Part shown: one piece after another, positions 40,059 through 41,117 of the stretch
Position numbering within the stretch: position 1 is the first letter of the stretch
How the letters are laid out: the number at the start of each line of letters is the position of its first letter
Origin: Saccharothrix ecbatanensis
Lineage (GTDB): Bacteria > Actinomycetota > Actinomycetes > Mycobacteriales > Pseudonocardiaceae
Direction of reading: 5' to 3'
Length of the DNA stretch: 64,000 bases
Assembly (NCBI RefSeq): GCF_014205015.1
Contig: NZ_JACHMO010000001.1
Coordinates: 7,130,001 to 7,194,000 of the forward strand
Notes under the pieces: model-generated
Told to the model about the DNA's origin: nothing
What the model saw: only the letters and a program-made list of their open reading frames with translations
The model's database searches: none
Position numbers and translations under genes: made by a program

Positions 40059-40208
40059 GACAGGCTGCTCCAAGCTAGGAGGGCTGGCGGTACTCGCGGA
40101 GCCTACCTGACCTGGGTGTTCATCATCTTCACAGGTGGCGGGCAGCACACGTTCACCTAGGATCACCCGATCGTGATGCGGCGTTTCGGAGCAGGTTCCT
40201 GCTAACCT

Positions 40209-40290
40209 GATCTCGCCAAGGCCCCGTAGGCCGAGGAAGTGAGCACGGCACCCGTCCGGACGGTCGGCGGCCGTGCTTCGCGCTTTCCTA
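40209..40290 (+). ncRNA. Candidate structured RNA, copy 1 (3' side of DUF3800 gene)
   Basis: The sequence can form two hairpins. Hairpin 1 is CC (40216-40217), AA, GGCC (40220-40223), loop CCGTA, GGCC (40229-40232), GA, GG (40235-40236). Hairpin 2 closes with AGCACGGC (40242-40249) and GCCGTGCT (40270-40277) and holds an inner CCGTCCGGACGG palindrome. The linker AAGTG and the tail CGCGCTTTCC are shared with copy 2. A -10-like TAACCT lies at 40203-40208. The plus strand is favoured because the internal loop of hairpin 1 then has purines (AA/GA here, GA/GA in copy 2). Candidate RNA motifs named for DUF3800 genes are known; a match to one of them is not established. Confidence 0.6.
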
Positions 40291-40827
40291 GGGCCAGTCG
40301 AGCCGGATCACCGAACCGATCACCGGGGTGACGCGACGCGTCCAGTCGCCACCTGCGCCGTAGCTCCATGCTGCGATATCGGCCAACCACACCAATGGAT
40401 CACTCGCACTGTCGAAGTGCTCGTACAGCAGGCCGCTCTCACGCGGGCGCTTACCCAACACGTCCCGAATGGTTCGGATGTCATGCTGGTCTCGGCCCGA
40501 CCTGCTGTCGAGCACAAGCCGCCGGGCATCGACGTCGAGCAGGTCGTCCACCAGCCGCGTCAGGCAGATTCGGCGGGCGATCTCCTCGCTTCGGCGACAA
40601 TCGGCCCGATAGATGTCAACGCGCACTTCGAGTTCCACCACGCGCGACAGGATCAGCTTCCGCCGCTGCGGTGTCTCTCGCTGAAAGTGCAGCTCGCGCT
40701 GGCCGGGAAAGAGCAGCCCTCGCAGCGCTTTGCGCAGTGGGGCCAGATCACCGAGGTCCACCAATGCCACAGCCAGGAGGTAGGTGTCGTTTCGACGGGA
40801 CTCGTCAACGAAAGCTTGCACACTCAC
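40288..40827 (-). CDS. DUF3800 domain protein, predicted RNase H-fold nuclease-like
   Basis: A 179-residue protein. AFVDESRRNDTYLLAVALVD at the N-terminus carries the DES acidic motif of DUF3800. ELHFQRE follows near residue 45, LVLDSRSGRDQHD is near 104, and PLVWLADIAAWSYG is near 150, with the conserved C-terminal Asp. The acidic residues in these places fit an RNase H-like active site. It starts with GTG at 40827 with only a weak ribosome binding site. Its stop codon abuts the end of RNA copy 1, and RNA copy 2 lies upstream on the opposite strand. The function of DUF3800 proteins is not known. Confidence 0.8.
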   Translation of the reverse strand: MSVQAFVDESRRNDTYLLAVALVDLGDLAPLRKALRGLLFPGQRELHFQRETPQRRKLILSRVVELEVRVDIYRADCRRSEEIARRICLTRLVDDLLDVDARRLVLDSRSGRDQHDIRTIRDVLGKRPRESGLLYEHFDSASDPLVWLADIAAWSYGAGGDWTRRVTPVIGSVIRLDWP

Positions 40828-40962
40828 GGCGGTCTATCGGCACCTCTGCTGCGCACCTGGAACAGTTCCGCCCGAACGTGTGTTCGGTCGCCCCAGTGGT
40901 CCCATATCAAGGCAGCTTCACCCGTCGGGAATTGGATTTCCGGCGCATTCCTTCGCTAAGGT

Positions 40963-41045
40963 CAACGCAGCCGAGGCCCGTAAGCCGAGGAAGTGAGCAC
41001 GGTCCCCCTCCCGGACGGTTGGGCGGCCGTGCTCGCGCTATTTCC
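40963..41045 (+). ncRNA. Candidate structured RNA, copy 2 (5' side of DUF3800 gene)
   Basis: A direct repeat of copy 1, about 755 bp away. Hairpin 1 is CC (40971-40972), GA, GGC (40975-40977), loop CCGTAA, GCC (40984-40986), GA, GG (40989-40990), a symmetric tandem GA internal loop. Hairpin 2 closes AGCACGG (40996-41002) with CCGTGCT (41027-41033). The interior differs from copy 1, but CCGGACGGT and the GGCGGCCGTGCT closing segment (part of it GG-GCGGCCGTGCT here) are kept. A -10-like TAAGGT lies at 40957-40962 at the same distance as in copy 1. A GTG directly after GAGGAA is too close to be a normal translation start. Confidence 0.6.
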
Positions 41046-41117
41046 GGACAGTGTTCGGGTGTTCGCTTTCGGCGGACGCGGTGGCGGGCGGGGCTGGGGC
41101 GACGCAGGGTGGGGATC

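Follow-up and report, generated by a model that had tools for sequence, protein, structure and literature searches.

The window analysed here, a 64,000-nucleotide (nt) stretch of Saccharothrix ecbatanensis DNA (contig NZ_JACHMO010000001.1, positions 7,130,001 to 7,194,000, forward strand), carries a gene for a DUF3800 protein that converges with a small structured RNA, the 3' end of which overlaps the stop codon of the protein gene. The two almost certainly form a dedicated two-component module made of an RNase HII-like DUF3800 protein and its RNA. At its core this module pairs a single RNA with a single, convergent DUF3800 gene, and the second RNA copy in the window is a recurrent extra. The parts of the locus, in window coordinates, are as follows.

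40203..40208, plus strand: −10 hexamer TAACCT of RNA copy 1 (sequence inspection)
40209..40294, plus strand: RNA copy 1, covariance model span, with its 3' end overlapping the DUF3800 stop codon
40216..40236, plus strand: hairpin P1 of RNA copy 1, CC-AA-GGCC / GGCC-GA-GG
40237..40241, plus strand: conserved linker AAGTG of RNA copy 1 (AAG[TC]G in 169 of 178 RNAs)
40242..40277, plus strand: hairpin P2 of RNA copy 1, apical CCGGACGG (CCGGACG in 165 of 178 RNAs)
40278..40284, plus strand: conserved tail TCGCGCT of RNA copy 1 ([CT]GCG[CT]T in 148 of 178 RNAs)
40288..40827, minus strand: DUF3800 gene, 179 amino acids, predicted RNase HII-like nuclease fold, convergent with RNA copy 1
40873..40886, no strand assigned: LexA-type SOS box CGAACGTGTGTTCG, 45 nt upstream of the DUF3800 start codon
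40957..40962, plus strand: −10 hexamer TAAGGT of RNA copy 2 (sequence inspection)
40963..41050, plus strand: RNA copy 2, covariance model span, an extra copy on the DUF3800 5' side without a DUF3800 gene of its own
40971..40990, plus strand: hairpin P1 of RNA copy 2, CC-GA-GGC / GCC-GA-GG
40996..41033, plus strand: hairpin P2 of RNA copy 2 (inspection, folding and covariation)

The RNA runs from hairpin P1 through the linker AAGTG into hairpin P2 and ends in a CGCGCT tail, for a model span of 86 nt. Covariance model R1, built from 12 copies out of 10 genomes of the genus and its close kin, scores copy 1 at 106.2 bits (expectation value, E, 9e-26) and copy 2 at 79.9 bits (E 9e-19), both copies being among its 12 training sequences. 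The window copies have in common a 35-nt block at 89% identity and an identical 12-nt block, at a spacing of 754-756 nt. A preliminary description, made from the letters alone, had listed two plus-strand direct copies with −10 hexamers, hairpins, the AAGTG linker, the closing AGCACGG/CCGTGCT and the CGCGCT tail, and all of these are present as described. Its suggestion that selection acts on structure is borne out by covariation scores of 0.293 for 75 aligned copies (at most 0.064 with slid partners) and 0.542 for 110 copies that are for the most part more distant (slid controls reach no more than 0.109), the latter set with double-sided changes in 18 of 19 base pairs; both alignments were fitted to the structure of the model and so lean towards it. 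The GA-rich internal loop survives in part: a G-A step is present, but as a tandem G-A/A-G within P1 that alternates with Watson-Crick pairs among members. The arms of P1 pair better with their own partners than with the arms of other RNAs (6.66 of 8 against 5.49 of 8), as counted for the 98 distinct P1 hairpins retained after 9 of 178 RNAs without the linker had been dropped.

Paired columns of the structure-fitted alignment hold 179 G-U and 41 A-C cells, and a TANNNT hexamer lies directly upstream of 149 of the 178 RNAs, with 133 of 161 such hexamers at two adjacent positions; the 178 are distinct RNAs with 70 nt of upstream sequence, drawn from lists of 75, 98 and 30 that include duplicates, and omit one plus-strand match in locus L152. 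The excess of G-U over A-C and the fixed upstream hexamer together argue for plus-strand reading of the RNA, as had been proposed, with a probable start at P1. At the 3' end of the gene, P2 forms a stable hairpin; two weakly scoring extra copies (L025 and L043) show mismatches in P2 by eye. Inspection of the model span and the short 5' leader showed no variable guide segment in these parts. Peptide coding by the RNA was rejected on inspection, the model spans, from 83 to 90 nt, not differing by steps of three.

The association between RNA and protein can be followed from either partner. When 84,980 genomes were scanned with the protein only, 96 DUF3800 stretches were confirmed and 80 loci retained; each of these has the RNA on the opposite strand, in 75 cases at most 60 nt from the end of the protein match (the largest distances being those at L178 and L185), and the DUF3800 stop codon overlaps the RNA at a nearly fixed position, mostly 7 or 11 nt inside the end of the RNA model. 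When the search was made with the RNA only, 26 of 29 loci, taken from the best-scoring foreign genomes out of 82 matches in 44 class genomes, proved to have a DUF3800 gene, intact or broken, downstream on the opposite strand. The paired RNA/nuclease-fold module that the preliminary description had offered as one possibility is thereby upheld. Only 32 of the 80 loci adjoin purS/purQ, so the pair is linked at many genomic places.

The repeats are more than a local coincidence: a 16-nt core recurs exactly in 10 of 99 genomes of a set of relatives, the own genome among them. The covariance search extends this to 24 of 25 genus, 138 of 297 family and 44 of 296 class genomes, with further homologs adjoining DUF3800 genes; each count includes the own genome, and models R1 and R2 were trained on members of the genus and family sets that were afterwards searched. 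Among the 296 class genomes, 36 have both partners, 8 the RNA only, 5 DUF3800 only and 247 neither. Sixty of the 82 class RNA matches lie tail to tail with a DUF3800 gene, and four, including copy 2 of the window, are extra copies at a DUF3800 5' side. The idea that two flanking copies define the architecture is therefore not supported: what stays constant in relatives is the RNA at the DUF3800 3' end, further copies are arranged in tandem to one side or the other, and one at the 5' side is seen repeatedly, though only in a minority of layouts. To judge by its sequence matches, the RNA belongs to one DUF3800 clade; in a specificity control, a search with the generic Pfam profile gave 25 loci, of which only 3 had the RNA. 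Divergent RNAs lie near generic DUF3800 genes at L217, L225 and L226, with four copies near the one at L225 (1307-2996), at E values from 1e-6 to 0.002. Of 57 loci that bear the RNA, 42 have an intact protein gene, 12 a broken one and 3 none, where intact means one frame covering at least 150 model positions, a definition under which some frameshifted genes (e.g., L021) count as intact; at 6 loci with orphan RNAs, tblastn found no DUF3800 remnant.

The open reading frame in the window matches Pfam DUF3800 (PF12686) along most of its length, which agrees with the preliminary assignment, but at 16.9 bits, below the gathering score of 21, so that it is a relative of the family rather than a member by the Pfam cut-off. 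The best 120 of 147 relatives in a large protein search are annotated as DUF3800 or hypothetical proteins, with a precomputed PF12686 label on 6 of them; those with named sources come mainly from Saccharothrix, Actinosynnema, Lentzea and Actinokineospora. Structural modelling confidently predicts an RNase HII-like nuclease fold, with 11-18% identity to RNase HII and RNase H2 in the 18 best structural matches; a search of solved structures by sequence returned chance matches only. From these enzymes the window protein differs in being short, single-domain and accompanied by an RNA partner. Acidic residues are strongly conserved: D8 and E9 are each found in 84 of 84 ungapped rows (5 of 89 being gapped), position 107 is D in 48 and E in 41, and D150 is present in 89 of 89. 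We take these residues to be equivalent to the catalytic residues of RNase HII. In the set used for residue conservation, the DUF3800 domain is intact at 88 of 91 loci, and the median ratio of nonsynonymous to synonymous substitution rates (dN/dS) is 0.34 over 55 pairs from 11 copies at or close to the purS locus. An RNase H-like fold for DUF3800 is described in a published study (PMC10910872). Comparison with PHROGs gave chance-level matches only.

The box CGAACGTGTGTTCG fits the Gram-positive SOS box, the consensus being that given in PMC2248561; in terms of LexA/SOS membership, a box of the CGAACRNRYGTTYG type is present before the gene. The motif GAACN4GTTC occurs in the 250 nt upstream of DUF3800 at 19 of the 80 loci, where 0.23 would be expected. 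Across the S. ecbatanensis genome, the strict motif occurs at 24 sites, and a reversed control gives 1 match. Nineteen of these 24 sites were inspected and five proteins searched against families, of which four were assigned: the sites precede genes for DNA polymerase IV, UvrA, PriA and an Rv2578c-type protein, three of the four assignments resting on 300-residue fragments below the curated cut-off. Mfd was recognized at a further site (L270) by eye only, and most of the other inspected sites have no evident repair gene.

In the window, the module lies between purS/purQ on one side and genes for an epimerase-like and a metallo-beta-lactamase-fold protein on the other. One genome, G023, has purS adjacent to the epimerase gene, with neither the module nor the SOS box; approximately 33 nt at this place are a possible scar, so that the site is either empty or deleted. 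Another, G036 (L237), has a purS-epimerase interval of ~740 nt with an apparently different extra open reading frame. The interval may be an insertion hot spot. At the purS locus of G016, three RNA-DUF3800 units stand in tandem with a period of ~731 nt, each with one SOS box. A TCACCCG-type element is found in the window at 40162-40177 and 40917-40929, ~25-40 nt upstream of both −10 boxes, forms an inverted repeat at RNA copy 1 and is seen also near the start of the tandem units in G016; it is perhaps an operator or a unit end. S. ecbatanensis has two further modules (L073, 2913-3156, and L074, 2939-3028), one consisting of two tandem RNAs and DUF3800 and the other of one RNA and DUF3800, and other Saccharothrix species have loci syntenic with them.

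Within the genus, synteny holds at three loci between the species compared, which lends no support to the self-mobile unit once considered, even though the pair is carried by plasmids and by a phage. DUF3800 protein relatives occur on 56 plasmid records out of 72,556; by type, 34 of the 56 are mobilizable or conjugative and the other 22 non-mobilizable. Of 10 of these plasmids examined, 8 carry the RNA by model, 7 of these at the DUF3800 3' end. Mycobacterium phage Gaia, whose recorded host is the laboratory strain Mycobacterium smegmatis mc2 155, carries the pair with an RNA of 55 bits; among viral contigs, none of 25 pattern matches was confirmed. Some plasmid loci depart from the usual layout. 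On two Rhodococcus plasmids (L306 and L308), the remaining two of the ten, the DUF3800 stop is followed, by eye, by P1-AAGTGG and then a different second part, which may be a sister RNA class; on a third (L305, 3606-4685) another gene follows DUF3800 and the RNA comes after that gene; and on an Arthrobacter plasmid (L303, 2480-3525) a DUF3800-like open reading frame overlaps the next DUF3800 gene by 4 nt, again by eye. A triple copy in genome G084 was not used as evidence of transposition, being a near-identical inverted repeat over the contig end that is shared with a second contig.

Rfam includes DUF3800-associated RNAs numbered DUF3800-I to -XI, which are reportedly the subject of Weinberg et al. 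2017. Like the window RNA, they are small structured RNAs beside a DUF3800 gene, and we know of no established role for them. Comparison with these motifs had been suggested at the outset, and the RNA matched no Rfam family in the scans made: none at gathering scores, whether in the window or at 20 diverse loci, and, at relaxed thresholds (E up to 10 at the locus, up to 5 on 7 loci), four weak matches to unrelated families, all below gathering. Of 20 generic DUF3800 loci scanned, 2 had DUF3800-XI (RF02975) next to the gene (L204, 1411-1458, where an inverted repeat follows it, and L222, 2111-2159); at both, it is on the DUF3800 strand, upstream of the gene, whereas the window RNA is convergent at the DUF3800 3' end. 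DUF3800-I had no match in 148 class genomes, but none in the search controls either.

Among toxin-antitoxin systems, those of type III (ToxIN-like) have an operon in which the RNA antitoxin precedes the toxin gene. The module resembles them in pairing an RNA with a nuclease, in its tandem copies and in its carriage by plasmids and phage; it differs in that its RNA is encoded opposite the protein gene and has a separate promoter-like box, rather than being a leader of the toxin mRNA, and in the modelled RNase HII-like fold. With SymE/SymR, as presented in PMC1891008, it shares a protein gene under LexA-type control and an RNA transcribed separately from it, but SymE has an AbrB fold, and the window RNA overlaps the 3' end of the gene, without detected leader pairing. 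An earlier description of the RNA was not found among the papers listed on DUF3800 and RNA motifs, subscription papers being mostly outside the coverage. Given the Rfam result, an arrangement unlike that of DUF3800-XI, and a fold and overlap unlike those of SymE/SymR, the RNA is a new class or variant within the DUF3800-associated RNAs, families other than DUF3800-XI having been compared through the Rfam scans only.

What the RNA does to the protein is a matter of weaker inference. We tentatively posit that it binds and restrains the nuclease in the manner of an RNA antitoxin, since a dedicated RNA and nuclease, carriage on plasmids and phage, tandem copies, decay of the protein gene and LexA-type control at the purS locus would all suit such a role. 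The small RNA, transcribed towards the DUF3800 3' end from its own predicted promoter, would be made constitutively, fold into two hairpins, bind the nuclease directly and hold back its activity. Where the gene adjoins purS, DNA damage and release of LexA would let the protein exceed the RNA, freeing the nuclease to act on RNA or RNA-DNA, and the module would thus serve as an RNA-antitoxin addiction or stress module. Several observations weigh against this proposal. Eighteen of the 82 class RNA matches have no DUF3800 match within 600 nt, and 21 of 86 class DUF3800 matches (fragments counted) have no RNA match within 900 nt. PADLOC returned no match for four proteins. The SOS box is found at 19 of 32 purS/purQ loci and at 0 of 48 others, making it a trait of that one locus, which it may mark no less than it marks the module. 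Such strong conservation of core sequence is more than an RNA antitoxin requires, and the RNA could equally be a cofactor, a guide or a substrate.

The most serious competitor, which we nevertheless hold to be rather unlikely, makes the RNA a positive cofactor of an active ribonucleoprotein, (i) scaffolded or (ii) aimed by its loops, that acts against foreign or damaged nucleic acid. Loop and linker sequences conserved beyond the needs of structure, the RNase HII-like fold and plasmid and phage carriage are consistent with it, as is the company kept by other DUF3800 proteins, which, according to two studies, accompany a sub-branch of Cas12a2 (PMC10910872) and occur in some VI-F and V-A2 loci (PMC12669027). 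However, no variable guide segment is visible in the model span or the short 5' leader, P1 begins only a few nt from the expected start site, and the RNA is still recognisable where DUF3800 has been lost. A type I-like arrangement, with antisense pairing between the RNA and the DUF3800 mRNA at the 3' end of the latter, or with interference by convergent transcription, seems unlikely. It would account for the stop-codon overlap at a nearly fixed place, and the SOS box on the gene together with a separate RNA promoter recalls the logic of SymE/SymR, but it leaves the strong compensatory changes and conserved loops superfluous and the extra RNA copies outside the range of overlap. Moreover, cognate pairing of RNA and leader (−48.3 kcal/mol) has no advantage over non-cognate pairing (−47.7 kcal/mol) across 77 of the 80 loci (L141, L178 and L185 omitted), and antisense action on the DUF3800 translation start was rejected on this ground.

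It is improbable that the RNA has an independent host function, with DUF3800 as its processing or decay enzyme: orphan RNAs and best RNA scores that barely differ between loci with the gene intact and lost (medians 83.0 and 78.4 bits) fit this view, but the patchy distribution (44 of 296 class genomes), plasmid and phage carriage and the P2 mismatches in the weak extra copies do not. Still less probable is a DNA element or bidirectional terminator (an end used in recombination, or a hairpin that terminates two convergent genes) in place of an RNA gene, which the direct repeats, tandem units and stable P2 hairpin at the gene 3' end might suggest, but against which the −10 box directly upstream, the presence of P1 and a conserved linker, the G-U excess and the occurrence of the RNA without the gene all weigh.

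The pair could represent a new class of ribonucleoprotein, in which a cognate two-hairpin RNA sets the activity of an RNase HII-fold nuclease and which acts as an addiction or anti-element module on actinobacterial chromosomes, plasmids and phage, released by the SOS response at one conserved locus; this broader picture is possible but doubtful. With a strong RNA model, a confidently predicted nuclease fold, an SOS clue, tandem arrays, orphan RNAs and a phage copy, the module offers a compact case in which whether a small RNA binds and controls a DUF3800 nuclease becomes a directly testable question.
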